In this document: positions 26,588 to 45,602 of the stretch, piece after piece
How the letters are laid out: each line of letters begins with the position of its first letter
Position numbering within the stretch: position 1 is the first letter of the stretch
Source: Streptococcus oralis
GTDB lineage: Bacteria; Bacillota; Bacilli; Lactobacillales; Streptococcaceae
NCBI RefSeq assembly: GCF_016028255.1
Contig: NZ_CP065707.1
Coordinates: 1,503,001 to 1,567,000 of the forward strand
Length of the DNA stretch: 64,000 nt
Reading direction: 5' to 3'
The notes under the pieces: generated by a model
The model's input: only the letters and a program-made list of their open reading frames with translations
Database searches by the model: none
What the model was told of the DNA's origin: nothing
Position numbers and translations under genes: made by a program

Positions 26588-27031
26588 TCAGTCCTTAGGC
26601 CGATTTAAGACAACGAGTTTACCTCGGCAGATGCCACAGCGATAGCGTTTTGTGTCAATCCTTCTCTTGCGTTGATAGATTTGCTGGCAAGATTGGCACT
26701 GATAGACTAGGTAACTATCCTGACTTTTCAAAGGTGGTACAAAGCGCAGTCCATCCACTTCTTTCAATAGTTCCTTAAATTCTCGGTCCTTATGGCGATA
26801 ACCCTTTTTCTGAAAATAAAGGTGATAGTGACAGAGTTCATGGCGCACGATTTTGCGAAAGACTTCCAAACCTAGTTCATTATAAACCTTGGGATTAAAA
26901 TCCAAATGCCCATCCTTTGGAAAAAATCGTCCACCTGTCGTTCGCAAACGAGAATTCCACTGGGCTTGGTGGGTGAAAGGTCTACCAAAGTCTTCGAGGG
27001 AAACAGACTGAACATACTCAGTTAGATTCAT
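26588..27031 (-). CDS. sprT: SprT-like zinc metalloprotease-domain protein
   Basis: 147 residues from the ATG at 27031 ([19 protein letters not shown]). A longer frame exists, but this start matches the family and overlaps the tex end by 14 nt. The HELCHYH zinc-binding motif is clear. Four cysteines near the C-terminus (CQSCQQ and CGIC) form a zinc ribbon. Bacterial SprT-like proteins are of unsettled function. The gene is coupled to tex. Confidence 0.88.
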
Positions 27032-29147
27032 CTGGAGCGAGAAGCGACAGGTTGACTTTTTCACGTTCAGTATCGATTTTCTTAACCCAGACCGTTACCA
27101 AATCTCCCACTGACACCACTTGACTGGGGTGTTTGATAAATTTGCGACTCATATGAGAAATATGAATCAAGCCGTCCTCGTGAATCCCGATATCAACGAA
27201 GGCACCGAAGTCAACGACATTACGTACCACACCTTCCAGCTTCTGGCCGACTTTCAAGTCTTTGATATCCAGTACATCTTGACGGAGTACAGGAGCATCA
27301 AAGGAATCACGGAAATCTCTACCTGGTTTGAGAAGGTCGGCAATGATATCTTTAAGGGTTTCTGGTCCAAGGTCAAGTTCTTGCGCCACTTCCTTGACTG
27401 AAAGGGACTTGAGTTTGCTTTGGGCTTCTTCATTCAAGTCCTTGATATCCAAGCGTTTGAAGAGTTCCTTGACAGCAGCGTAATTTTCTGGGTGAACTCC
27501 TGTATTATCAAGGATATTGCTGCTTTCTGGGATACGGAGGAAGCCAGCTGCCTGTTCAAAGGCCTTGGCACCCAGACGGGGAACCTTTTTAATTTGGGCG
27601 CGTGAAGTGATTTTCCCTTCTTCCTCACGGTATTTGACAATATTTTCAGAAATAGTTTTATTGAGTCCAGCTACATGGGAGAGAAGAGCTGGGCTGGCTG
27701 TATTGACATTGACACCAACTTGGTTGACAACGGTATCGACGACAAAGTCCAGACTCTCAGACAGTTTCTTCTGACTGACATCGTGCTGGTATTGACCGAC
27801 ACCAATTGACTTAGGATCAATTTTAACCAATTCAGCAAGGGGATCTTGCAAACGACGGGCGATAGAGATAGCAGAGCGTTTTTCAACGGTTAATTCTGGA
27901 AACTCCTGACGAGCAAGTTCACTAGCAGAATAGACAGAAGCTCCACTTTCATTGACAATAACATAGCTGACTTCTGGAAACTCTTTCAGAACTTCCGCCA
28001 CAAAGGCTTCACTTTCCCGACTGGCCGTTCCATTTCCGATAGCAATAATTTCTACGCCATACTGACCAATCAAGTCGGCTAAGTCTCGCTTGGCTTCTTC
28101 GATTTGATGAGCTGAAGCTGGTTTAACAGGATAAATGACTTGGGTCGTCAGCATTTTTCCTGTTGTATCAACGACAGCCAGCTTAGCACCTGTACGAAAG
28201 GCAGGGTCAAATCCTAGAACCACGCGCCCTTTCAGCGGAGCAACCAAGAGGAGATTGCGCAGATTGTCAGAAAAGAGTTGGATAGCCCCTTCTTCTGCCT
28301 TCTCAGTCAATTCTGTCCGAATGCGTCGTTCGATAGCAGGCAAGACCTTTTTCTTAACTGACTGTTGAACCACTTCATCTATATAGGCATTTTTCACCTT
28401 GAAACGAGCAGCAAAGAAAGATAAGATACGGTCCGTCGCATGTTCAAAGCCAACCTTCAAAATACCTAGTTTTTCCCCACGATTGAGGGCCAAGGTACGA
28501 TAGCCCTGCATGTTGCCAACTGTCTCTGAAAAATCATAATAAATCTGAAAAACTTGTTTTTCATCAAGACTTTCATCCTTGACTTGCGAAGTAAGTTTAG
28601 AGTGTCTCAGCACCTCCTGATAAGTCATAGCACGTAAATTGACATCTTCCGATAAGGATTCGACCAAGATATCAACTGCTCCAGCCAAGGCTTCTTGACT
28701 AGTCGCAAATCCTTCACAGACAAAGTTCTCAGCCTCTTTCTCTAAGTCAGTTACGTTTTGCAAAATTAAGCGAGCGAGAGGGAAGAGTCCAGCTTCACGG
28801 GCAATGGTTGCCTTGGTCCGACACTTTTCCTTATATGGAAGATAAAGTTCTTCAACGTCTGCTAATTTTTCAGCTGCCAAAATAGCTGCTTCCAATTCCT
28901 TAGTTAGCTTGCCTTGTTCTTGAATCTTAGCTAAGACAGCTTCTTTACGGTCGTTGAGATTTGTCAGACTTTTATCCAGGTCGATAATGGCCTTAATCGC
29001 CACCTCATCCAAACTACCAGTCATGTCCTTTCGGTAACGCGCGATGAAAGGAATAGTCGCCCCTTCAGCCGTCAAACTTAGAACGGTATCAATTTGCTTT
29101 AAGGTTACTCCCAAATCTTGGGAGATTTTTTCATATTTTTTATCCAT
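27018..29147 (-). CDS. tex: Tex, RNA-binding transcription accessory protein
   Basis: 709 residues from [14 protein letters not shown]. Visible domains are the N-terminal Tex helical region, the YqgF RNase H-like domain ([19 protein letters not shown]), helix-hairpin-helix segments (about 480-560) and a C-terminal S1 domain ([24 protein letters not shown]). Tex affects transcription and stress or virulence traits in several bacteria. The -10 box ends only six nt before the ATG, so the mRNA probably has no leader. sprT follows with an overlap. Confidence 0.93.
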
Positions 29148-29153
29148 AAATCT

Positions 29154-29159
29154 ATTATA
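29154..29159 (-). promoter_or_regulatory. tex promoter placed for a leaderless transcript
   Basis: TGGTATAAT is an extended -10 element whose last base is six nt before the tex ATG. Transcription would begin at or next to the A of the start codon, leaving no room for a Shine-Dalgarno site. Confidence 0.72.
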
Positions 29160-29264
29160 CCATAAGGGAAACAATAGAGTCTCTTCTCTAAAAACGGTTT
29201 TTATATTTACTTGATTAATCTTCTATAATATCTATATTTTAGTCTTCCATTTTTAATGCAAAAC

Positions 29265-32200
29265 TTAAAAACTTTTATCAACTAGCCCAATATCATGCTG
29301 AATTAAATTTTTTTCCATCCAAAACAATCCTCTCCATCTACTATAATATTGGTCTCGAGGAGATTTGGTAAAGTATTGTTTTTCTCCAATAAAATTCCAA
29401 AATACACTTAAATCATTTTCTTTTAAAAATTGATCAAGATAATCTTTTCGTATGATCAATCCATTTATAGTATTTGTTAGTTCACCATCAAAAGCTACTA
29501 AGTCTCCCTCTTGACTAAAATAATATCCATCATACTTCTTCTGAACTAAATGTAATTTGCCAATCAACTCTGGACAAGGAATATCAAATGATATAGTTTC
29601 TTTTTTAGAAGCATCATATTCTTCTTCCCAGCAAAAATGAATATGGGCAGGCAAAAGCTTGGCAAGTGTCTTTTTTACTTTAACAGTAAAATACTCTTCT
29701 TTTTCAACTAGTTCAACCTCTTCGCCAGATTGAATGAAATCAAGAACTTTTTGACGTTTAATTTCTTCCTCACCAGTTTCTACATTATAGTTGAACCAAG
29801 AATCTTCTACAATTTCTTTCACACCTGGTGACCATGGGAACTCTCTGTTATATATCTGATATAGAGAGGTTACTTCAGACTGTATTCCATTTTTGAACAT
29901 CTCACTTTTTTCAAAATTAGATTTTAAAGAATCGAATTCACCGTTTTTTACAAAATATGCACCAATAATTCTCCACGTTCTCTGATGACCTTCACAAAAC
30001 CATGAAAATGTATCAGAAGCTTCATCTTTTTGGTTTTTAATTTCTTTATGTTGATAAAGCAATGTCCATTCTGTCCCATCATTATCTTTATAAGTTAAAG
30101 GCATATCAAACAAACTTGTTTTGTGTAAAATCCACTCATTAATTTGTTGATTATTAACTCCTGTATCTTCGATAAAGTTTTCATTATATTCAATAGTGAA
30201 TTTCGGAAGTGATTCTAAAGGAAGCATGAAATGACAATTTAAAGTAGGATCAAAATCTCTAACATATGGTTCCCAAGCACCTTTATATTCCTCATCAGAT
30301 GAGTTACTCCAACCCTTTAACTTATGAAAGTCTGAAACCCTTGCTAGAATATTATAAAATGCAATCCATTGGTATTTCTTTCCAATTCTCTCAATAGTGT
30401 GATTTCTTCCTCTATCAAGAGGGTGCCCGCATGAAATGTCATATTCAGTGAACAATTCATCTGAATATCCTAACTCATCTCGAATATATTGCATTGCATA
30501 ATGATATAGATTCTCAATGTCAACGTTCTTGAACCGATTTAGTGCTGATTGGAAAGTATATCTTCCAAAATCACCGTACATACCGACACCTTCTGGTCTC
30601 ATAGAAGTATCTATTCTGTCAAAGCCTCCTCTTTTACTATCCAAGCTACTATAGGTGCTAGGAGTAACAATAGGAATCGGCTTAGAATTGTAAGGAGGAA
30701 TTATATTTAAACGGTCTATTTTGGCACTATTTTTAGGAAATTCAAATAAATATCTTTCAATAATCAATCTTGCATAATCCCTCAGTAAAATATCTGGATA
30801 GTTGAATTCTTTATCAAATATACTTGAATAGATAAACTCTGCTAAAGATTGAAACTCATTTTCATATGGAATTTCTTTTTTCGTACAGGCACCAAGAACA
30901 ATGCCATATAATCTTTGAATAATGTAAGGGTCATTAACTGTTTCAAATTTTTGTAATAGATATTCACTAAACTCAAAATTATTCTTCAAAATTTCAATCA
31001 TTGCTTTTGATGTTATATCACGTAACCTTCTATTTGAAGAAGCTAGCAACCATGTGAACAATATTAAAAGCAACTTAATTTTCTCTTTCGAAAGGGAATC
31101 AATTTTATTACCTTCATCAAAAAGGCAAATCAATTGAAAAACTCTCTCATATTCATTTGTTAAATTATTGATAAATGGTAGCCAAAGACTATCGCGTTTA
31201 TTTAACTGCTTAGGAAAAAGAATTTCATGTAAGTACTCCGAATTTATAGGACTGTTTTCTTTAATCGCATTTTCGATTAAAACATTGAAAACATCTTGAT
31301 AATTTGTAGGGTAATTATTTGCAATATTTCTAAAAAGCTCTCTACTTACTGTATCTACTGGTCGCCAAGAAAAGCTCTTTAAATATCTGTTGGCTAAATC
31401 ATAACAATCATATTCGTTAGAAATCTTTTCAATCAACTTTATACAGTCTTCATCATATTCTTCAAAATAGAAACAAGATACAAAGAGAAAAGTATCTATG
31501 TTTTTGTTATTTTGAATCTCTCCATTTTCGATTTTCAATAGCTCTTTTTCAAGATAAGAATCTAATTCTTCCTTATCAAACGAAAACTCCATAATCTTTT
31601 GAGCTTTAAGATAATCCTCTAATAGATTATACCCAAAGGAATACACTTCTTTATCTTGACGTACATTGCCAATCATTAAACCTGATTTAAGCAGAAAAGA
31701 AAGAAAGTATGATTTATTTTGAATGCCGTAATATGACCAAAATTTCATTTGAAATAGTTCTTCCTCGATAAGATAATTATTGCTATTACTAAGTTGACAT
31801 TCGGCAATTTCTAATAATAATTTTTTTAATATTTTACCCGAATCCGGAATACCTAAGGCTTTCTGAATTTCTTCATCAATTAAAGTAATAAAACGATCAA
31901 ACATTTGAAAAAGATTTAATTCTTCTCCATTATACGTTTTACAGAATAGAGTTAAAAACAGCGGATTCGTCATCTCATAGTTTAATAACTCAGATGGCGA
32001 AAATGGAATATTGTGAAAATTTAGAAATTCTTTAATTGCTACTACAGAATCATCTTGAAAACCATGATGCGTAATTCTTAAAAGTTCCCCACTTTTTAGT
32101 CGTTCTATCATATTTTCTTCAAAAACGAGTTTTTCATATCCTGTTCTCACAGATAGTACAAGTTTAATATGTTTTCGCCTGCATATTTCTGAAATAATCG

Positions 32201-33446
32201 TTGATAATCCATTCTTCCACACACTTCGATTTGGAGTCTCATTAATTGCATCAATAAAAATATATATGTGCTGATTCTCAATCTCCCCCAGAATATCTAA
32301 CATATCTAAGAATTCACGGAATCCATAATCAAATTCAAATTTCTCCATAATTTGTTTAGAAATATCACTACTAGATAGATAGTGATGTCCTAACAAAAGA
32401 AGTGCATATCCATCCTCACTCATTGTTTCCTTTACAGAATTTGCAAGTAATTGAGTTTTACCCATACCTGCTTCTCCAGTGACAACAAGAATTTTATCGC
32501 TGATGAGTGCCTCCTCTTTGTTTGAACTTCCAATCCAGTTTAGATACCCTATCAATCTATCTATATCACGTACTTGATTGAATATTCTATTCCGATTTTC
32601 CGAAGATAAATCACTAGTTGACTCTATTTTATTATCTAGATTTTCCCTATTAATACTCAATTTTTCAAGTTCGAACTCTAAACTACGATTAATTTTATCA
32701 TTCCACTCTAAATAATTCTCTATATTATCAACCGTTACATCTTCTAAACTGTCAATAAATTTCTTAATTTTAAAAATTATCTCACTTCCTCTTAAGCTAA
32801 AGAGCGTATCTAACTCTTTGAGGAATTCTATTTTTTTACCATTAATTTTATCAACAGCTTTTTGATTTCTAGTAAAAAGATGAATTTTTTCATCTGTTCC
32901 AGTCTCAACATTAAACATTGGGTTATACCTCATACCTAATGAATCAAATGATAATTGATTATAATTTTCAAACCAATCCTTTGTTATCATATGATTCTCA
33001 AAAAAGAAGGATTGTAAATCGGTATACTGCGTAACTTGAGTTAGAATTTCATTATTGCTAATAACCCTTAGTTCAATATCAGCATTTTTCAAAGCTTCTA
33101 CAATTCTTTTATAACTTGAACTTGTTAATGTTAAATCCTTATTACAGTAGAGATAGAAGACATCAAGTTGTTCAGCATATTTTTCTATAGTTTTGTTTAC
33201 TGATTTTTGAATTTGAGAATAATCTACTCTATTAAAAAAATATTTTGCCTGGAAAGAAATTATTTTATTCACTTTAGGACTATAAATAGGTGAAACTTCA
33301 ATGCCTGGATGATTTGGGCTTGAAGTTAAAACGCAGGTGTTATCTAAAAATTGTCTTTTAAATAGTATCCTACATAATTGTTCAAAAGTATCTGTTACAT
33401 CACTATGTATAGATTCAAAATTACTCCAAGCTATCTTATTTTTCAT
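29265..33446 (-). CDS. Mrr-like nuclease / STAND NTPase, AVAST-like defence protein
   Basis: 1393 residues. Residues ~15-150 look like a PD-(D/E)xK nuclease of the Mrr type: Glu22, Glu50 in HPGIEVSPI, and Gln66-x-Lys68 in ISFQAKYF. A linker with SLGMRYNPMFNVET (168-181) leads to a STAND/NACHT ATPase. Walker A is GEAGMGKT (324-331), Walker B is IYIFIDAINET (394-404), and LSVRTGYE is a sensor-like Arg (434). The remaining ~900 residues are helical and then mixed, with no recognised repeats, and probably sense a phage protein. The nuclease-STAND order is that of AVAST (Avs) proteins. The gene stands alone, is visibly AT-rich against its neighbours, and lies between conserved chromosomal genes. 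Confidence 0.75.
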   Translation of the reverse strand: MKNKIAWSNFESIHSDVTDTFEQLCRILFKRQFLDNTCVLTSSPNHPGIEVSPIYSPKVNKIISFQAKYFFNRVDYSQIQKSVNKTIEKYAEQLDVFYLYCNKDLTLTSSSYKRIVEALKNADIELRVISNNEILTQVTQYTDLQSFFFENHMITKDWFENYNQLSFDSLGMRYNPMFNVETGTDEKIHLFTRNQKAVDKINGKKIEFLKELDTLFSLRGSEIIFKIKKFIDSLEDVTVDNIENYLEWNDKINRSLEFELEKLSINRENLDNKIESTSDLSSENRNRIFNQVRDIDRLIGYLNWIGSSNKEEALISDKILVVTGEAGMGKTQLLANSVKETMSEDGYALLLLGHHYLSSSDISKQIMEKFEFDYGFREFLDMLDILGEIENQHIYIFIDAINETPNRSVWKNGLSTIISEICRRKHIKLVLSVRTGYEKLVFEENMIERLKSGELLRITHHGFQDDSVVAIKEFLNFHNIPFSPSELLNYEMTNPLFLTLFCKTYNGEELNLFQMFDRFITLIDEEIQKALGIPDSGKILKKLLLEIAECQLSNSNNYLIEEELFQMKFWSYYGIQNKSYFLSFLLKSGLMIGNVRQDKEVYSFGYNLLEDYLKAQKIMEFSFDKEELDSYLEKELLKIENGEIQNNKNIDTFLFVSCFYFEEYDEDCIKLIEKISNEYDCYDLANRYLKSFSWRPVDTVSRELFRNIANNYPTNYQDVFNVLIENAIKENSPINSEYLHEILFPKQLNKRDSLWLPFINNLTNEYERVFQLICLFDEGNKIDSLSKEKIKLLLILFTWLLASSNRRLRDITSKAMIEILKNNFEFSEYLLQKFETVNDPYIIQRLYGIVLGACTKKEIPYENEFQSLAEFIYSSIFDKEFNYPDILLRDYARLIIERYLFEFPKNSAKIDRLNIIPPYNSKPIPIVTPSTYSSLDSKRGGFDRIDTSMRPEGVGMYGDFGRYTFQSALNRFKNVDIENLYHYAMQYIRDELGYSDELFTEYDISCGHPLDRGRNHTIERIGKKYQWIAFYNILARVSDFHKLKGWSNSSDEEYKGAWEPYVRDFDPTLNCHFMLPLESLPKFTIEYNENFIEDTGVNNQQINEWILHKTSLFDMPLTYKDNDGTEWTLLYQHKEIKNQKDEASDTFSWFCEGHQRTWRIIGAYFVKNGEFDSLKSNFEKSEMFKNGIQSEVTSLYQIYNREFPWSPGVKEIVEDSWFNYNVETGEEEIKRQKVLDFIQSGEEVELVEKEEYFTVKVKKTLAKLLPAHIHFCWEEEYDASKKETISFDIPCPELIGKLHLVQKKYDGYYFSQEGDLVAFDGELTNTINGLIIRKDYLDQFLKENDLSVFWNFIGEKQYFTKSPRDQYYSRWRGLFWMEKNLIQHDIGLVDKSF

Positions 33447-33477
33447 TGAAAAACCATCCTAAATATATTTTATCAGA

Positions 33478-33495
33478 TATGCTAATTTTAGCATA
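33478..33495. promoter_or_regulatory. inverted repeat upstream of the STAND gene
   Basis: TATGCTAA-TT-TTAGCATA, a perfect 8-bp dyad with 2-nt centre, 32 nt before the STAND start codon. It could be an operator or part of its promoter. The rest of 33447-33641 is AT-rich and holds plus-strand -10 boxes at 33554-33559 (TGATATAAT) and 33606-33611 (TATAAT) for the following gene. Confidence 0.45.
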
Positions 33496-33641
33496 AATAA
33501 TATTAAAATCCTATGAGTCATATAAATTTAATTTAAAATACTATCTATTTTGATATAATCAGAAATATGCACGAGTTTAATACCTCCATTTCCGTAAAAT
33601 AATAGTATAATAGAGGTAGAATGTAGAAAAGAGGTGGGCCC

Positions 33642-33773
33642 ATGGCTGTTAAATTCACAAAAACCGATGACTTGGACAAGATGTTTGAGGAATTCGCCAA
33701 ACTTCCTGACTTAACACAAGTCACTTTCCCAGATGACAAAGACAAAAAAGAAAAAGTTGAGAAGAAAAAATAG
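33642..33773 (+). CDS. 43-residue highly charged protein
   Basis: Starts MAVKFTKTDDLDKMFEEFAK and ends in a run of Lys, Asp and Glu. The RBS AGAGGTGGG precedes the ATG. Its stop codon is immediately followed by the ATG of the permease gene, so the two are translated together. No signal or membrane segment is present. A similar short gene precedes this permease in related streptococci as far as I recall. I assign no function. Confidence 0.8.
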   Translation: MAVKFTKTDDLDKMFEEFAKLPDLTQVTFPDDKDKKEKVEKKK

Positions 33774-34679
33774 ATGACGATTTTTCAATCTCTTCCTCCT
33801 AGCATCTTACAAGCAGGGGCTATTTTTCTCTCCATCATGATTGAAGCCCTTCCTTTTGTCTTGATTGGGAGTCTCATTTCGGGATTGATTGAGGTCTATA
33901 TCACACCTGACAAGGTCTATGAGTTTCTCCCTCGCAATCGTTGGGGGAGGATCTTTTTTGGTACCTTCATTGGCTTTCTCTTTCCATCCTGCGAGTGTGG
34001 AATCGTTCCCATCATCAATCGTTTTCTGGAAAAGAAAGTGCCCAGCTACACGGCCGTTCCCTTTCTGGTGACTGCTCCCATCATCAATCCTATCGTTCTT
34101 TTCGCTACATATTCTGCCTTTGGCAATTCGATAAAAATCACCTTCCTACGAGCGTTGGGAGCTATTGTGATTGCTTTGGTTCTGGGGATTTTCCTAGGAT
34201 TTTTCTGGAAGGAACCCATTCAAAAAGAGAATTCTATTACTTGTCATGAACATAACTTTTCACACTTGAGTCCCGCTAGAAAAGTATTTCAGGTCTTTAT
34301 ACAAACTGTTGATGAGTTTTTCGATATGGGCCGTTACTTGGTCTTTGGTTGTCTCTTTGCGGCTATCATGCAGGTCTATGTCCCGACTCGGATCCTGACC
34401 TCTATCAGTGCAAGTCCAGTCCTTGCGATTCTTTTGCTCATGCTTCTTGCCTTTCTCCTCTCTCTTTGTAGCGAGGCAGACGCCTTTATCGGTGCTTCTC
34501 TCCTCTCGAGCTTCGGCCTAGCACCAGTCCTTGCCTTTCTGGTCATTGGCCCCATGCTTGATATCAAAAATCTCCTCATGATGAAACACTATCTCAAAGC
34601 GCGCTTCATCTGGCAATTTATGGGCATCGTGACAGTTCTTGTTTTGCTTTATTCTTACATGATGGGGGTGATGCTATGA
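33774..34679 (+). CDS. predicted permease of the ArsP_1/DUF318 family (YcgR-like)
   Basis: 301 residues with about eight membrane helices. The family motif FPSCECGIVPI occurs near residue 67 and the second half carries SLCSEADAFIGASL, so conserved cysteines are in the membrane. The next gene is a DUF1980 protein, as in the Bacillus ycgR-ycgQ pair. Substrates are not established; metal or thiol-related transport has been suggested for relatives. The ATG follows the previous stop with no gap and the end overlaps the next gene by 4 nt. Confidence 0.85.
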   Translation: MTIFQSLPPSILQAGAIFLSIMIEALPFVLIGSLISGLIEVYITPDKVYEFLPRNRWGRIFFGTFIGFLFPSCECGIVPIINRFLEKKVPSYTAVPFLVTAPIINPIVLFATYSAFGNSIKITFLRALGAIVIALVLGIFLGFFWKEPIQKENSITCHEHNFSHLSPARKVFQVFIQTVDEFFDMGRYLVFGCLFAAIMQVYVPTRILTSISASPVLAILLLMLLAFLLSLCSEADAFIGASLLSSFGLAPVLAFLVIGPMLDIKNLLMMKHYLKARFIWQFMGIVTVLVLLYSYMMGVML

Positions 34680-37851: not shown

Positions 37852-38625
37852 TCAGTCGTGGCCTAATTCTTCAAGGAAAAATTGATTTAGAGCTTTCCAG
37901 TCTTTCTTGACGTCAGTAACATTTTGGATGTATACATCCAACTCTTGGATATTATCTAAAATATAATCTTGAATTGGCTTTATAGGCTCAATTTGCATAC
38001 CTTCAGGACTGTTTATCTTAATGTCAAGCAATCTTGAAACATGCTTCTTCATTTGAGACGGCAGCAATTCTTTCACCAAATCATCAAATAAAATCGGAGG
38101 GATTGAATGGTATTTTTCGATCCAACGACAAGCCAAAATAGGACGAAGCGCGTAGAAATACTTTTTAGGTTTGACCTTGTCTCCTGAAAGATACTTATTC
38201 ATTTGAGTTCTAGCAGTGTTCAAGTAATGGTGAAGCATTTTTTTCTCTGAAAAATACTGGTTGGCAAGAGGACGTATGCGCTCGATAAAATCCGTTTGTT
38301 GATAAACAATTGGTGACTGTAACCATTCAAACAGTGTTGGATTTGACTTATAAAGGAGTTTTAAAGTCTTATCTAAATCCCAGCCACTCACATCCCAAGT
38401 ATCGTCAATTGGTAACTCGATAACATCACGCTGTTCATTTAAACGGAGATAGAAATCTCGCTTGTGTTTGTAGATAAACCGTACATCAAAGTCACTATCA
38501 GGAGACTCAAAGCCCCATGCACGACTACCAGACTCGATAGCCCACAAAACTGTGATACCATAATCACGCTCAATTTCTGCTAATTTTTCAGGTACCAGAA
38601 CATTCATTTCTTCTTGCGTTTGCAT
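37852..38625 (-). CDS. RlaP/YcgL-type nucleotidyltransferase
   Basis: 257 residues, DNA polymerase beta superfamily (COG3541). The nucleotidyltransferase core is ESGSRAWGFESPDSDFDVRF, with the GS motif and two metal-binding aspartates. Relatives have been linked to RNA repair and occur next to type I restriction genes. It starts 17 nt after hsdR, with AGAGG as RBS, so it is likely co-transcribed with it. The biochemical target in this context is unknown. Confidence 0.82.
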   Translation of the reverse strand: MQTQEEMNVLVPEKLAEIERDYGITVLWAIESGSRAWGFESPDSDFDVRFIYKHKRDFYLRLNEQRDVIELPIDDTWDVSGWDLDKTLKLLYKSNPTLFEWLQSPIVYQQTDFIERIRPLANQYFSEKKMLHHYLNTARTQMNKYLSGDKVKPKKYFYALRPILACRWIEKYHSIPPILFDDLVKELLPSQMKKHVSRLLDIKINSPEGMQIEPIKPIQDYILDNIQELDVYIQNVTDVKKDWKALNQFFLEELGHD

Positions 38626-38642
38626 TTATAACCTCTTATTAT

Positions 38643-41600
38643 TTACGCTGCTTCTCCAGCTCGATCATTGATGAGTTCAATTGTTTGGACAATATTACGA
38701 AGTATAGGGAGTTGGTGTTGAAAGAGTAGTTGAACTGAACCATACGATTTAAACGGCTCTTGTGTTAAAACTTTAGTCTCCAAACAACCATTTTCTACAA
38801 TGTAATCTACAATCAATTTCACAAAGGAAATCTGCTTGGCATTGAGACTCTCATCCGATAAAAATTTAGAAAAAACTTGATTGGCAGACTCTCTATCCAA
38901 ACCAATAATCTCACGAACCAATCTAGGAATTGCCTTATTTTCATAATGTTGTTGGTAATCTGACTTGCTACCTAATTTTTCCCATAACAATGTTTCAAGT
39001 GCAAGTAAATCCTGAGAGGTCAATTTTTCATTATGGTATAACTTAGAAATTGCTTCATCATCTAGATGAGTTCTCAAATAATGTTCAACTTTTTCATTAT
39101 AAGATCGTAGGTCATTGACTTGTAAATATGGCTTAGTATCATGGACAGTGGAAAGAATGTGATCATCAAAATTGACATAATATACAGTGCGTTCCGGTTT
39201 ATCCAGAAACTGTAGTAAATCTCGAAGCGCAAGGCGTATTTTTTCCAACTCGGATAAACTAACTTCTTCCCAAAATTCAGGTTCTTGTACTTTCCTGATA
39301 ATTTCAGCCTGTGCAAAAACTTGTGGTATATTGCCAACCCTAGCAAGGGCTTTAGCTGTTTTCATAACTTGAGATATATGGACAGTTGCTGGCTTAGCCA
39401 ACAGTTGTCCTAACTGTATCTGAAACAGCCATAAATCAAATCGTCTCGCCATCTCGTCTTCTTTATTTTCTTCAAATAGAATCGGAGAAAGATCTTTCTG
39501 GATTGTTTCACTTGTGACGGTCGTTAGATTTTGCCAATTTTCCAACTTTCTGTAAGTATAAACTGTATCTAAGACCATACGAACCCTAAAGTCTAACTCA
39601 TTTAAGCTCACCATACGTCCATGAAGTTCTGAGACGAGTTGTTGACGGTATTCTCTAGCAAACTGATCATCTTGATAACGAAGCTCCTGCAGTTCACGAA
39701 TCAAGTCCACCTTGGTGTTAAACAAACGTTGAGTCAGAGAAACAATGTGACGACCATCTCCTTCTCTTGGATCAGCTTTGAAATATTCAAAATTATCACC
39801 ATAATCGAATACCAAGAAATTTTCCTTATCCTGCTCAGGGCCGAATAAATCTTTACAAAGACGGGTTCCACGGCCAATCATCTGCCAAAACTTAGTTTTA
39901 GAACGCACTTTCTTGAAAAAGATTAAATTAACAACCTCTGGTACATCAATACCTGTATCCAACATATCAACAGAAATTGCAATTTGAGGGTATTTCTCCT
40001 TAATTTTAAAATCATCAATTAAGGTTTGATAATGCTTAATGCTATAATCAATCACTTGAGCATAATCGCTTCCTTTTTCAGGATAGCGTTCGTTAAAAAT
40101 ATCTCTGATGTATTCAGCGTGTCGATGGTTTTTAGCAAAGATAATGGTTTTACCAATTTCGTCACCTGAAGCTGTCTGAATCCCTCTTGTCATTAGTTCA
40201 TCTAGAACAATTTTAACTGTTTTTCTATTGAAAATAGAGGTATTAAAATCCTCAGGATCAATATCTTTCTCAGAACTACCATCTTCAAATTGACTATCAA
40301 AATATTCTTTTTCGTCTTGAGATAAATCATCGTAATGTAGACCATCCGTAGGTAGTTTCAACTTCGTTTCAATCGAATGATAAGCTACTAAATAGCCATC
40401 TTTGACAGCCTCTTCCAGATCGTATGCGTATGTTGGAACACCATTCTCCAAGTTAAAGAAACCGTAAGTATTTTTATCTAAATCTTGACGCGGAGTGGCA
40501 GTTAATCCTACAATCCGTGCATCAAAATAATCAAAAATTGATTTGTATTTCTGATAAATAGAACGGTGAGATTCATCAATTATGATGAGATCAAAGTGCC
40601 CAACAGTGAAGGGGCGTTGATTTACTTCTTCTTGATCACTAATCGCTCCTATCATAGTCGGATAGGTTGAAAAAACCATTCGACTAGATCGAGCACCATC
40701 TTTATCCTCTAAGAAATTGCAAACTGAAAGATCTGGAAGTAATTTCCTAAACGAGTCATAAGCTTGCTTAACTAGGGATGTTCTATCAGCCAAGAAAAGA
40801 ACATTTTTAACCCAGTTATGACGCGATAGGATATCAACTAGAGAAACCGCTGTACGGGTTTTCCCAGAACCAGTTGCCATAACCAAGAGTGCCTGTCTAC
40901 GATTATTGGAGAATGCTTCACAGACACTTGTAATCGCATGTTTCTGATAATGACGTCCAGAAATGTCGTCCCTAATTTTGCTAGAAATATCCTCGAGTGG
41001 TTTTTGCAAGTGACGTCTGTCCATCAACAGTTGCAACTCTTCTTGAGAGTAGAACCCTGCAATCTGGCGACGATTAACACCATCAAGTATGTAGTGCTTT
41101 AAACCATTGGTAATAAAGCAAATTGGCCAATAGCCGATTTGTTTCTCAAGAGCTTCAGCGTATTCTTTGACCTGTACTTCCCCTGCTTCTGGATTTACAG
41201 ATGCCTTTTTAGCTTCAACAATTGCTAGAACTTTCCCATTTTTGCCATAAAGGACATAGTCACAGTATCCAGTTCCTGTACCATGCTTCAAACCATGAAC
41301 GGCTACCTCAACACGACAGTTTTCCTCAAATGTCCAACCCGCTAAACGGAGATCAATATCAATAAAGAGTTTTCTTGTCTCTGCTTCAGATAGTTGATCG
41401 ATATGGAAAGATACATCTTGCCGTAGAGCTGCTGTTTCACGTTTTTCAGTATAAGTCTCTTGAGCAGCCAAGGACTGACTAGCCATCTGTTCATCGAAAT
41501 CAGGAAGATCTGGCAAACTGTTTTGTAATTTCGCCATAGATTGCGGCGTTTCTCGAAACTTGATGTTTGCTGTAAGTGGCAATAACTTCTCATCGAAATA

Positions 41601-41993
41601 ACGCTCCACAAACTTGTTACTGTAGCAATAATCAATAAAATTGACAAACTGAAACAAATGATGCAAAGCCAAAATCGCTTCTCGTTCCTTAATTTCTCCA
41701 CCATGTGCAGCGTGATTTCCCCATCGAATTAAAAGAACAATCTGCCTGTGGAGCTCAGGATCCACAATCTCTCTAAAATCATCATCCCATACCAAAGAAG
41801 ATAAGGTAGCACGATAGGGAGCTTCTAGATATGAATCGTGACTATATATCCAATGAACAGCCTGCTCCAAAGCACGACGCGCCATAAAAGCAGTAGCCAC
41901 AGTAGATGTCGCAATCATATTTTCAGCTTCTATACAAGGCTTTGAAAAAGATTCATACTCTTCGTTATTTAAAAGAAAATCAAAATTTCCCAT
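38643..41993 (-). CDS. hsdR: type I restriction enzyme, R subunit
   Basis: 1116 residues. An N-terminal DUF4145-like helical domain (1-130) is followed by a PD-ExK nuclease (CDYVLYGKNGKVLAIVEAKK, about 235-260). Next are superfamily 2 helicase motor domains with VMATGSGKTRTA and IIIDESHRSIY, and a helical C-terminal domain that docks the methylase. It translocates and cuts DNA when HsdS finds unmethylated sites. A TATAAT box at 42026-42031 could give it its own promoter inside the silent hsdS fragment. No disruption is visible. Confidence 0.93.
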   Translation of the reverse strand: MGNFDFLLNNEEYESFSKPCIEAENMIATSTVATAFMARRALEQAVHWIYSHDSYLEAPYRATLSSLVWDDDFREIVDPELHRQIVLLIRWGNHAAHGGEIKEREAILALHHLFQFVNFIDYCYSNKFVERYFDEKLLPLTANIKFRETPQSMAKLQNSLPDLPDFDEQMASQSLAAQETYTEKRETAALRQDVSFHIDQLSEAETRKLFIDIDLRLAGWTFEENCRVEVAVHGLKHGTGTGYCDYVLYGKNGKVLAIVEAKKASVNPEAGEVQVKEYAEALEKQIGYWPICFITNGLKHYILDGVNRRQIAGFYSQEELQLLMDRRHLQKPLEDISSKIRDDISGRHYQKHAITSVCEAFSNNRRQALLVMATGSGKTRTAVSLVDILSRHNWVKNVLFLADRTSLVKQAYDSFRKLLPDLSVCNFLEDKDGARSSRMVFSTYPTMIGAISDQEEVNQRPFTVGHFDLIIIDESHRSIYQKYKSIFDYFDARIVGLTATPRQDLDKNTYGFFNLENGVPTYAYDLEEAVKDGYLVAYHSIETKLKLPTDGLHYDDLSQDEKEYFDSQFEDGSSEKDIDPEDFNTSIFNRKTVKIVLDELMTRGIQTASGDEIGKTIIFAKNHRHAEYIRDIFNERYPEKGSDYAQVIDYSIKHYQTLIDDFKIKEKYPQIAISVDMLDTGIDVPEVVNLIFFKKVRSKTKFWQMIGRGTRLCKDLFGPEQDKENFLVFDYGDNFEYFKADPREGDGRHIVSLTQRLFNTKVDLIRELQELRYQDDQFAREYRQQLVSELHGRMVSLNELDFRVRMVLDTVYTYRKLENWQNLTTVTSETIQKDLSPILFEENKEDEMARRFDLWLFQIQLGQLLAKPATVHISQVMKTAKALARVGNIPQVFAQAEIIRKVQEPEFWEEVSLSELEKIRLALRDLLQFLDKPERTVYYVNFDDHILSTVHDTKPYLQVNDLRSYNEKVEHYLRTHLDDEAISKLYHNEKLTSQDLLALETLLWEKLGSKSDYQQHYENKAIPRLVREIIGLDRESANQVFSKFLSDESLNAKQISFVKLIVDYIVENGCLETKVLTQEPFKSYGSVQLLFQHQLPILRNIVQTIELINDRAGEAA

Positions 41994-42079
41994 TTTTCTC
42001 TCACTTTGAATAAATAGATAGCTATATTATACTAGATTTCAAGCTATTTCTCCACAGTTTTATAACTATCCCACAAGCA

Positions 42080-42148
42080 AATTGTGATTTGTCGACTTGA
42101 GCCACAAAGTCTGCGAACTCGTTTTGGAGGGAAAGAGGGGGGAGGGGG
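42080..42148 (-). repeat. 69-bp direct repeat, silent copy
   Basis: 69 bp identical, except one base (T/C at 42097), to 44506-44574 in the active hsdS. It encodes the conserved C-terminal PLPPLSLQNEFADFVAQVDKSQ region and includes a purine tract GGGAAAGAGGGGGGAGGGGG. Confidence 0.95.
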
Positions 42149-42586
42149 CACACAAATTTAGAAATTTGAGATTTATTAACTTTAGGCAAATTAGTTCTAC
42201 TTGAAAACGATAAAATAAAGTTCAAAAAATAATCACTTCTTAACACATGAGCAAGAAATATCCTATTCATTTTTTCGTCAACTGTTAGAATTGGATAAGC
42301 GTCTGCTGAACATACTCCCATAAAATCAGGAAGAGCTACTTTATTTAAATTAGGCCTAATCTTACTATAAATAATGTGTTTCTTAGTAAATAAATACTTT
42401 CCACTACTGATTTGATCTTCTCCTACCGTTCTATAACCTATAAGTTTTCCAGTGTTTTTTTCAATACTATCTATTCCAATGTGTGGTAAATCTATGAAAT
42501 TGCTAAAATCGGAAATCATTTTTGTATCAAATTTTGCAAACTCATTAAACGAAGCATAATCCCACTTAAATTCATTTAACAATAAG

Positions 42587-42616
42587 TCCCCAAACATCTC
42601 GTTAAATCGGGATTTG
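42587..42616 (-). repeat. 30-bp direct repeat, silent copy
   Basis: An exact 30-bp match to 45046-45075 in the active hsdS (begins TCCCCAAACATCTCG on the plus strand). It encodes the central conserved segment before the second recognition domain. The two copies are 2459 bp apart in the same orientation. Confidence 0.95.
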
Positions 42617-42619
42617 CAG

Positions 42620-43585
42620 TTAAGAGATGAATTTTTGGTGTGAATGTTTGACATTGCTTTGGTTAACCATGGCATAGGCCAGAGTTGTATCAATTTTGCT
42701 GTGACCGAGTAGTTTTTGGACTTGCTCAATAGGCATTCCTTTATCAATAGCCTTTGTCGCTAGGGTTCTTCTGAATTTATGTGGATGAACCTTTTGTATT
42801 CCAAGTTTTTGTCCTAACTTTCTCAATCGAATCTCGACACCAGCAATTCCAAGTCTCTGGGCTTTTCCAAGTAGCGTTACAAAAAGAGCTGGATGACTAT
42901 CTTTTCTATCATTGAGATAGTTTCTTAAATGAATTTTCGTACGAGCATCAAAATATACGGGTCTTTCTTTTTTTCCTTTTCCAAAAACAACGCACTCTCT
43001 GTTTTCAAAATCAATATCAGAACGATTCAACTGGACCAGTTCTCCTACACGCATACCTGTTGATGCTAGTAGGTCAATCATTGCCAAATCTCTTAAATTT
43101 TCACAATTATCTCTCATAATTTCCAGATGTTCGTCCGTATAAGTTTCTTTCACAGTTTGTTCTGTTTTAATTTTTTTAATCCTTCGAATAGGATTCTTGA
43201 TGATATATTCCTCTTGCTCAAGCCAAGCAAAAAAAGAGGACAATATACGCCGAATATTGTCCAAATTCGCCTTACTACAGTCCTTTTCAGACTGATAATT
43301 TGCTAGATAACTCCTTAAATCATCTGTTGTCAGTTGTGTCACAGACTCCTTAATATGATGAAACAAATTTTCAATTGTTCTCTGATAATAACGTATTGTT
43401 TTTGCGCTACAGCCCTCCACCTGCTTAGCAGTGATGAATAGTTGCAACAGATTATTATTTGAATGCTTCTGCTTCTTTTTTCCATCCACTAGATGGCGTT
43501 CTAAACTCTCTCGCAATGCTAGTAATTGTTCATTGTTTAAAAAGGGTAACATTTCTTGTATGATAATTGTAACTTTTGATTCCAT
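42620..43585 (-). CDS. tyrosine recombinase of the variable restriction locus
   Basis: 321 residues, XerC/D-like. There is an N-terminal SAM-like core-binding domain (about 45-135) and a catalytic domain with Arg in STGMRVGELVQL, HKFRRTLAT (HxxR), LGHSKIDTTLAYA (His and the nucleophile Tyr). All catalytic residues are present. The position between the toxin-antitoxin genes and the silent hsdS fragment matches the pneumococcal tvr locus, where such an enzyme is linked to hsdS rearrangement. Its stop is 4 nt from the 30-bp repeat. Confidence 0.92.
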   Translation of the reverse strand: MESKVTIIIQEMLPFLNNEQLLALRESLERHLVDGKKKQKHSNNNLLQLFITAKQVEGCSAKTIRYYQRTIENLFHHIKESVTQLTTDDLRSYLANYQSEKDCSKANLDNIRRILSSFFAWLEQEEYIIKNPIRRIKKIKTEQTVKETYTDEHLEIMRDNCENLRDLAMIDLLASTGMRVGELVQLNRSDIDFENRECVVFGKGKKERPVYFDARTKIHLRNYLNDRKDSHPALFVTLLGKAQRLGIAGVEIRLRKLGQKLGIQKVHPHKFRRTLATKAIDKGMPIEQVQKLLGHSKIDTTLAYAMVNQSNVKHSHQKFIS

Positions 43586-43611
43586 AAATTCTCACTTTCA
43601 TAATTACTCAT

Positions 43612-43663
43612 CAATAAAAAGAGGCAATATCAGTTTCTGCATTACAGAATTCTAATATTGCCT
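43612..43663 (-). terminator. terminator after the toxin gene
   Basis: Minus strand AGGCAATAT (43655-43663) pairs with ATATTGCCT (43622-43630), with further inner pairing, followed by CTTTTTATT. It separates the toxin-antitoxin transcript from the recombinase gene. Confidence 0.85.
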
Positions 43664-43706
43664 GTTCATTTATTTTCTTATGCTCATTTCAATCCAGCAT
43701 ACTATC

Positions 43707-44120
43707 TCACTTTTTGACCTTTTCTCTGATAGAATGTTCAGAAATCCATTTAGAGTAGCTTATCATTTTTTCATCAGTTAAAGCTTCTACCGCTATAGTC
43801 ACGCACATATCAACCGCTTCTTCCGCGGAAACAGTAAAGTGATAACCATTTAATTGTAAAAACTTCACCAAAACAAAGAAGGCCGTTCGTTTATTGGCAT
43901 TGGCAAAAACATGCTTCTTTATCAATTGGACAAATAATATTGTTGCTTTATCAAAAATTGTTGGATAAAGAGGTTTGCCAAAAACAAATTGTTCTGGTAA
44001 GTTCACAATCATATTTAACGCTGAAGGACTAACTGTTTGAATTTGCTCCTTTGGAGAATACCGTTGAATTGCTAAAGCATTGATTTTTTCAATTTGCTTT
44101 TCTGTTAGATAGACTGTCAT
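43707..44120 (-). CDS. doc: Doc-type (Fic fold) toxin
   Basis: 137 residues. The Fic/Doc active site reads HVFANANKRTAFF, the Doc form (HxFxxANKR) that phosphorylates EF-Tu in characterised members. The N-terminus YLTEKQIEKINALAIQRYS and the PSALNMIVNLPEQFVFG segment are also typical of death-on-curing proteins. Its start overlaps the antitoxin stop by 4 nt. The motif is intact, so the toxin is probably active. Confidence 0.92.
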   Translation of the reverse strand: MTVYLTEKQIEKINALAIQRYSPKEQIQTVSPSALNMIVNLPEQFVFGKPLYPTIFDKATILFVQLIKKHVFANANKRTAFFVLVKFLQLNGYHFTVSAEEAVDMCVTIAVEALTDEKMISYSKWISEHSIREKVKK

Positions 44121-44353
44121 TTTTCCACCAAAGCTTTGAAAACATCGTCGTATTCATCAAAAATTGTATCCAATTTTAAGTTAAAGGCATCATCAGAAAC
44201 ATAAGAGATCTGATGATCCAATTCTTCAGGAGTAAAGATAATTTCACCACTTGGTAACAATTTTGCTTCGTATTTAACACCACTTGGAATATTGAACTCG
44301 CTTGGAATCGTAATGGTGATTGAATTTCCTTGTTTTCTTGTTTTTACAACCAT
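44117..44353 (-). CDS. AbrB-type antitoxin
   Basis: 78 residues. The N-terminal swapped-hairpin DNA-binding domain is MVVKTRKQGNSITITIPSEF and the acidic C-terminal part (FDEYDDVFKALVEK) would bind the toxin. It is upstream of doc with an ATGA overlap, the normal antitoxin-toxin order. It has its own promoter with a palindromic operator. In the tvr locus such a pair is thought to stabilise the variable segment. Confidence 0.87.
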   Translation of the reverse strand: MVVKTRKQGNSITITIPSEFNIPSGVKYEAKLLPSGEIIFTPEELDHQISYVSDDAFNLKLDTIFDEYDDVFKALVEK

Positions 44354-44373
44354 CTGATTTCCTCCTTTGAAGT

Positions 44374-44402
44374 ATTATAACAAATAATTACGGTAATTAC
44401 AA
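44374..44402 (-). promoter_or_regulatory. toxin-antitoxin promoter with internal operator
   Basis: TTGTAA (44397-44402), a 17-nt spacer and TATAAT (44374-44379). The palindrome TAATTACGGTAATTA (44385-44399) lies between the two boxes, where binding of the antitoxin would block RNA polymerase. The RBS AAAGGAGG follows. Confidence 0.82.
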
Positions 44403-44435
44403 CGATAGTGTAAAACTGCTATTTCATCTCAGATC

Positions 44436-45602
44436 TTAACCGAAATATTCCTGCATAAGTGATTTTTTCAAGGTTTCCAATTCTTCTAGTGATTTTTGAA
44501 TTGCCAATTGTGATTTGTCGACCTGAGCCACAAAGTCTGCGAACTCGTTTTGGAGGGAAAGAGGGGGGAGGGGGATGTATAATTCTTCAATCTGATTTTT
44601 TGTTATCGCTTGACGGGTGGCGCCTGAACTTTCTCCTATTTTCAGTAACAAACTCTTAAACTCTGAAGTTATTAGAAGTTGATTTAAAAATATTGGTGAT
44701 AATAAGTGCTTTTTACAACGAATTATAGAAACGTGCTGATTAACTCTCGCAGGCAAAATATTTTGAGGAACAATACAGCAACGAGATACAGATGCACCTG
44801 TAATATTTAGCAAAACATCGTCGGATTCAACAATTACATTATTTAATTTTTCAGCCTGAACATTAGTTAGATAAGCTAAATCTTTGAAAATAAACTTACC
44901 ATCATATACATTCATACTTCTAATAAGTGCTATCCCTTCGTTGACATAACTTTCTCTTCCTCCTCTAGGTGTAGCCCCTGAACCAATTTTTAATGTTAAT
45001 TTTGATAATCTATGTTTTTCCCAACCCATTTCATTCAGAACAGGATCCCCAAACATCTCGTTAAATCGGGATTTGACGAGTTTTGATAATTCAGATAGTT
45101 GTTGTTTACGAGATTCAATTAATTTATTAACACCATCTAATCTCAAAACAATTTGCTGTTGCATAAAAGGCTCGTTGTATACAATAGACAAGTTATTCAA
45201 CTTTGCCTTGTTTAACGTTCTACCCATCACAGCCCTGTCTGTTAAACTATCAAAATTCATTCCTTGTAGTGCATAGTAAAGATATTCATTAAAAAGCATC
45301 TTATTATTTTTAACCACAAAATTAGCTATTGCTTCGTTTGTGTACATATTTTCAGCAAGAATTCCAACCTTGCCAATAGATAACTTAAAACTCATCACAA
45401 CTGTCCCTTTTGAAACAATTTGCATTTTTTCTTTTTGGACAGCTTCTTGAGTTATTTTCTCCTTAGTAGTACATAATATTTTCCCTTTCATATCTGAAAT
45501 GGATAACCAAGGATAGTCACCTCCCCAATATAAAGTTTGAGAACGATTTGGTGTCTTGCCAATTCTTATCTCACAAACTTCCCCCAACTTCACTTTTTTC
45601 AT
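44436..45602 (-). CDS. hsdS: type I restriction enzyme, specificity subunit
   Basis: 388 residues with the usual plan: first recognition domain (about 1-150), central conserved helices (about 155-190, SRKQQLSELSKLVKSRFNEM), second recognition domain (about 195-340) and C-terminal conserved helices (about 343-388). Codons 176-186 lie in the 30-bp repeat and 343-366 in the 69-bp repeat shared with the silent fragment. The second recognition domain is therefore the exchangeable part. It starts 12 nt after hsdM. Confidence 0.93.
   Translation of the reverse strand: MKKVKLGEVCEIRIGKTPNRSQTLYWGGDYPWLSISDMKGKILCTTKEKITQEAVQKEKMQIVSKGTVVMSFKLSIGKVGILAENMYTNEAIANFVVKNNKMLFNEYLYYALQGMNFDSLTDRAVMGRTLNKAKLNNLSIVYNEPFMQQQIVLRLDGVNKLIESRKQQLSELSKLVKSRFNEMFGDPVLNEMGWEKHRLSKLTLKIGSGATPRGGRESYVNEGIALIRSMNVYDGKFIFKDLAYLTNVQAEKLNNVIVESDDVLLNITGASVSRCCIVPQNILPARVNQHVSIIRCKKHLLSPIFLNQLLITSEFKSLLLKIGESSGATRQAITKNQIEELYIPLPPLSLQNEFADFVAQVDKSQLAIQKSLEELETLKKSLMQEYFG
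44506..44574 (-). repeat. 69-bp direct repeat, active hsdS copy
   Basis: Partner of 42080-42148 with one mismatch. Crossing over between the copies would exchange the end of the gene and excise a 2.4-kb segment containing the toxin-antitoxin and recombinase genes. Confidence 0.95.
45046..45075 (-). repeat. 30-bp direct repeat, active hsdS copy
   Basis: Exact partner of 42587-42616, in the central conserved region of hsdS. Confidence 0.95.

Follow-up and report, generated by a model that had tools for sequence, protein, structure and literature searches.

The gene described here lies in a window of 64,000 nucleotides of the Streptococcus oralis contig NZ_CP065707.1 (positions 1,503,001 to 1,567,000), which is the whole stretch of DNA analysed and to which all coordinates refer. 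An intact open reading frame (ORF) on the reverse strand, at positions 29265-33446, codes for a protein of 1393 amino acids, is open over all 1393 codons and is the sole match to its own sequence within the 2.02-Mb genome. The gene had been described as AT-rich in an earlier reading of the letters alone (hereafter, the sequence-only reading), and its content of guanine and cytosine is indeed 30% versus 39% for the window. A promoter scan returned 36 sites versus 27.4 expected. The encoded protein is conserved and has three parts, a nuclease domain with its catalytic residues, a STAND ATPase with its Walker motifs and an Avs2 sensor (Table 1).

Table 1. Features of the Avs2-type gene, of the inserted segment that carries it and of neighbouring genes
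Feature	Coordinates	Strand	Evidence
Whole gene, Avs2-type antiviral STAND protein, 1393 aa	29265..33446	-	ORF; PADLOC Avs2, 8.9e-211
Mrr-like PD-(D/E)xK nuclease (predicted effector), residues 1-150	32997..33446	-	hhalign to Mrr_cat proteins, column-shuffle control, predicted model
E22, glutamate of nuclease helix 1	33381..33383	-	invariant, 40/40 and 34/34
E50, acidic residue aligned with D of Mrr_cat proteins	33297..33299	-	invariant; profile alignment
QxK motif, Q66-A67-K68	33243..33251	-	Q66 and K68 invariant; position 67 A/S/V
Linker, mostly helical, residues 151-310	32517..32996	-	predicted model
STAND/NACHT NTPase, residues 311-560	31767..32516	-	Pfam NPHP3_N; structural matches NOD2, NLRC4
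Walker A, GEAGMGKT, residues 324-331	32454..32477	-	sequence, alignment conservation
Walker B, FIDAINE, residues 397-403	32238..32258	-	sequence, alignment conservation
Avs2 sensor, residues 561-1393, helical stretch then strand-rich end	29268..31766	-	9o4e profile match; Foldseek 8dgc
Sensor motif ERIGKKYQWIA, residues 1019-1029	30360..30392	-	1019-1028 invariant, 40/40; also in 9o4e
Sensor motif VRDFDPT, residues 1062-1068	30243..30263	-	invariant, 40/40
Inserted segment (4.4 kb; ~55 bp there in two close relatives)	29170..33585		blastn ends 29167/29169 and 33586 versus G007, G019
tex, left flank	27018..29174	-	Pfam Tex domains
Conserved 43-codon gene, right flank	33642..33773	+	conserved at relatives' site
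ArsP_1-type permease, flank	33774..34679	+	library scan
HsdR, type I restriction	38643-41993		library scans
Integrase-family gene	42620-43585		within type I restriction cluster
HsdS, type I restriction	44436-45602		library scans

Conservation was assessed in two alignments. The first (A1) contains the query and 39 homologues chosen from the best 120 of 312, the candidates having been collected with words of the first 500 residues, and the second (A2) contains the query and 33 of 80 loci (34 sequences) retrieved with two sensor patterns. Since the rows of A2 and of a further alignment, A3, were selected by sensor patterns, sensor conservation is quoted from A1, whereas nuclease conservation is quoted from A2 as well. 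The Mrr-like set that the sequence-only reading had proposed at residues 22, 50 and 66-68 is located as claimed, with E22, E50, Q66 and K68 identical in 40/40 sequences of A1 and 34/34 of A2, and with A, S or V at position 67; the retrieval of the A2 rows by sensor patterns means that this conservation is not an artefact of the search.

When a profile of residues 1-155 was compared with 13 Mrr_cat proteins of relatives (13 of the 14 matches found there) by hhalign, the single comparison gave a probability of 93.6 and an E-value of 3.3e-8; the two profiles coincide at the E, G-x-E/D and QxK positions, and none of 100 column shuffles reached the real score (best probability 1.3). The domain thus shares with the Mrr_cat restriction endonucleases (PF04471) the helix glutamate, the acidic residue after a glycine and the QxK motif, but it has E where their consensus has D and is fused to a STAND ATPase and a sensor. 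The Pfam model Mrr_cat itself has no match to the query at E<=10 and matches two of the 34 A2 sequences at E<=0.1; for lack of that match on the query we name the domain Mrr-like rather than Mrr_cat. Judged by its sequence, the N-terminal domain is an Mrr-like PD-(D/E)xK nuclease, and DNA cleavage is its predicted activity.

The ATPase motifs GEAGMGKT and FIDAINE likewise stand where they had been reported, and G324, G327, G329, K330, D399 and E403 are invariant in A1 and A2. Pfam NPHP3_N scores 25.5 bits on residues 1-560 (cut-off 24.8) and 24.1 bits, below the cut-off, on the whole protein. The comparison of predicted structures with those of Avs proteins, which the sequence-only reading had suggested, was made for both halves. 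The model of residues 1-560 (predicted local distance difference test, pLDDT, 89) has as its best match in the PDB the Avs4 structure 8dgf, bound to the phage portal (E 1.8e-12, aligned residues 3-557), with NOD2 and NLRC4 also among its structural matches. The best Foldseek match of the sensor-half model (pLDDT 86) is the terminase-bound Avs3 structure 8dgc (two chains, E 1.3e-7 and 2.0e-7), with no other chain reaching E<=0.001. Neither likeness is accompanied by a sequence match to an Avs4 model or to Avs3, and the Avs3 chain is some 600 residues longer. Regarding the sensor itself, no recognised repeats had been noted, and Pfam lists none at E<=10; nevertheless, the model is helical over a long stretch and becomes rich in strands at its end.

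The assignment of the protein to Avs2 (AVAST type 2) comes from full-length sequence homology. Six PADLOC Avs2 models match, the best of them, PDLC02162, at 8.9e-211 with residues 4-1377 aligned to positions 2-1359 of a 1379-position profile, and none of the seven PADLOC models with E<=10 is named for another Avs type, Avs3 and Avs4 included. In a sequence search of the PDB, the Avs2 structure 9o4e was the sole clear match (4.7e-87; 5.2e-170 by profile), and a profile of residues 550-1393 matches it at 1.4e-196 in two stretches. The match to 9o4e begins at query residue 127 by sequence or at position 154 of the profile, and no likeness was seen N-terminal to it. It should be noted that 9o4e is not among the listed Foldseek or VIA matches of the structural models, an absence that carries no weight. 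The ATPase and the sensor are homologous to those of Avs2 (PDLC02162, PDLC02164, NF041813, 9o4e) and are common to the query and two Avs2 proteins annotated by NCBI. The motif ERIGKKYQWIA is kept in both of these proteins as well as in 9o4e. The Avs-type architecture that had been read from the sequence, an Mrr-like nuclease plus a STAND ATPase, is borne out. The further suggestion that the C-terminal region may define a sensor type not yet described is not supported, as both the motif and the sensor belong to Avs2.

A narrower definition of the family gives a different result. The NCBIfam model NF041813 (Avs2) matches the protein at 2.4e-177 with 592.3 bits, under its curated cut-off of 1000 bits, whereas the two NCBI-annotated Avs2 proteins score 1424.4 and 1675.1 bits. 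The protein falls within Avs2 in the broad sense of PADLOC, by a full-length match to this Avs type only, and it is placed, because of its score, in a related branch outside the NF041813 equivalog. A FastTree phylogeny of 86 rows, computed from the ATPase and sensor regions and displayed with midpoint rooting (long branches being flagged by the program), groups the query with streptococcal proteins inside a mainly Bacillota branch of 44 rows, to which two records from spirochaetes, one from Bacteroides and some lacking a phylum label also belong. The other branch has 42 rows and includes both annotated Avs2 proteins. Three loci with broken or partial ORFs (L055, L067 and L093) were omitted from the tree; in L067 and L093 the N-terminal part is out of frame although the contig runs on, which may reflect a frameshift or an assembly error. 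We conclude that this is a real gene and an ordinary member of the already described Avs2 kind, from a branch that the Avs2 equivalog of NCBI does not include. Very probably it constitutes a one-gene Avs2-type antiviral STAND system, an Mrr-effector variant from the mainly Bacillota branch, with a putative mechanism of terminase sensing and DNA cleavage.

This mechanism is modelled on characterised Avs2 proteins. In an E. coli Avs2, the target is recognised via the C-terminal sensor and ATP-dependent oligomerisation switches on the N-terminal effector, and the large terminase subunit is given as the target of Avs1-3 (PMC12724215). The effectors of Avs1-4 are described as nucleases that act on both phage and host DNA by cleavage (PMC12931631). 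By analogy, the likeliest trigger of the streptococcal protein would be the phage large terminase, with DNA cleavage and abortive infection as the outcome. Specifically, the C-terminal sensor would bind a conserved phage protein made in infection, of which the large terminase subunit is the likeliest candidate, and the STAND domains would oligomerise with ATP. The clustered Mrr-like domains would then cleave the DNA of phage and host alike, and the infected cell would in consequence die or halt ahead of phage release.

The same family and effector might instead respond to a phage protein other than terminase, which we regard as unlikely but as the most serious of the alternatives. Such a trigger would fit the position of the query's branch outside the NCBI equivalog and its sensor, which is about 100 residues shorter than that of 9o4e, and a second trigger has a precedent in a Klebsiella Avs2, which is reported to bind Ksap1 as well (PMC12724215). 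On the other hand, the sensor half is homologous to that of 9o4e over nearly its whole length, and its best structural match is the terminase-bound Avs3. It is somewhat more doubtful still that the mainly Bacillota branch forms a functional Avs2 subtype with its own trigger or terminase range, of which the shortened sensor and the score under the cut-off would be signs.

The distribution of N-terminal domains among relatives bears on a second alternative, in which the protein would be a lone restriction protein of the Mrr type whose ATPase is regulatory, acting on modified DNA rather than sensing a phage protein. With a nuclease profile based on A2, and thus derived in part from loci that it then scored (33 of the 80), the Mrr-like domain was detected at 40 bits or more in 77 of 89 proteins (80 loci, the two annotated Avs2 proteins and seven others), making the effector of the query the commonest type in this sample. 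All 44 rows of the mainly Bacillota branch carry it. Outside this branch, the annotated Avs2 of Rhodothermus (WP_144295528) has an Mrr-type effector as in the query, its domain scoring 104.7 bits with the A2-based profile and 24.2 bits with the one based on A1. The twelve proteins without the domain comprise four that are truncated or at contig ends (L067, L087, L093 and L109) and eight with a different N-terminus, including a Vibrio Avs2, all of which belong to the 42-row branch. These eight keep the ATPase and the sensor; the sensor is thus independent of the Mrr-like nuclease, and Avs2 swaps effectors. Hence, while the N-terminal domain is what a restriction protein of this kind would have, the remainder of the query is an Avs2 STAND ATPase and sensor, and relatives retain these two parts with other N-termini, which makes a solitary restriction protein highly improbable.

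Two groups could be distinguished by eye among the different N-termini. In L095, L100, L107 and L118, mostly from Bacteroidota, the first ~130 residues appear to contain two hydrophobic membrane-spanning stretches; a membrane effector on an Avs2 sensor would merit attention. In L096, L097, L104, L135 and the Vibrio Avs2, another type of N-terminus occupies the first ~150 residues ahead of the same ATPase and sensor.

At the insertion site, two close relatives with a 94% identical permease (G007 and G019) have tex and the 43-codon gene only ~100 bp apart, with no insert. The permease locus was compared in 23 relatives from the genus (L011-L033): tex lies within 300 bp of the permease without an insert in nine and 0.5-1 kb away in three, and in eleven it is not within the 1.5 kb covered. 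The gene is present in four of 147 genomes of the genus, its own included, at three sites, and a second, profile-based sampling of the taxonomic family found it in three of 295 genomes at E<=1e-50. One carrier (G079) shares the insertion site of the query. In another (G101), it stands between YcxB-like and polA genes, as judged by eye, and the shared DNA covers only positions 29315-33447 (93.9%). In the third (G058), a 57% copy lies in what, by eye, resembles a restriction-modification cluster. Matches in phage records are limited to 2 of 50,697, both below 60% identity and aligned to less than half of the query, and those in plasmid records to 69 of 72,556, all below 60% identity, with six covering at least 80%.

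The gene was acquired as a single gene. An insertion borne by a transposon or integrase was considered and rejected, as no target duplication was seen by eye at the ends of the insert and the insert has no other ORF of at least 100 amino acids; because the DNA shared with G101 amounts essentially to the gene alone, single-gene recombination is the likelier route. Synonymous divergence (dS) is uneven along the gene (0.37 in the nuclease versus 0.05 in the sensor against G079), a pattern that recombination would give. Against L007 and L008, dS varies strongly by domain, from 0.04 to 0.49, a sign of recombination between copies. The ratio of nonsynonymous to synonymous divergence (dN/dS) is 0.30 against G079, 0.28 against G101 and 0.14 against G058, for which dS is near saturation; together with the open orthologues, these values indicate that the gene is under purifying selection and is not a chance ORF. 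A decaying or non-functional copy, which the rarity of the gene in the genus might suggest, is the least credible alternative of all, given an ORF open in all four carriers, preserved catalytic and Walker residues and the dN/dS of 0.28-0.30 against the two near orthologues.

The gene had also been read as a lone insertion between tex and a short conserved gene, which holds for the single gene and its 43-codon neighbour. The neighbourhood does contain defence genes, however, since type I restriction genes occupy 38.6-45.6 kb, some 5 kb from the insert. An RlaP-family gene lies beside them (37852-45602 of the window in all), and no long near-perfect inverted-repeat pair of the kind expected for a phase-variable type I system was found near the restriction genes. 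We also scanned the 73 nearest of 139 ORFs in 39 loci of relatives, with pieces of Avs2 ORFs excluded. At 1e-20 these neighbours matched 97 PADLOC families, none of them by more than four ORFs, including type I restriction (two proteins), a type II methyltransferase (two) and PDC-S02 (up to four); PDC-S02, a candidate group, accounts for 21 of the 25 families shown, with four proteins at the most. As a control, 37 genes of the window that are not part of the restriction cluster, with tex and the permease counted in, gave one family with three matches and one with a single match. The scan counts families and not distinct proteins (HsdS of the window alone matches 115 models at 1e-3), and since one protein can match many families, no enrichment of defence genes is claimed. 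Our confidence in the Avs2 assignment is thus derived from homology and not from defence-gene context.

With this gene, a Streptococcus is seen to carry an immune protein that is encoded by one gene and resembles the terminase sensors, and close copies of it occupy other chromosomal positions within the genus; among the titles listed in searches of one literature library, none had a streptococcal Avs2 as its subject. The protein is a moderately sized Avs2 from a Gram-positive bacterium, its effector being a plain nuclease, and the general picture of Avs systems is unchanged by it. Its value is that of a test case for whether the mainly Bacillota branch responds to the phage protein that is detected by the characterised Avs2 of Gram-negative bacteria.

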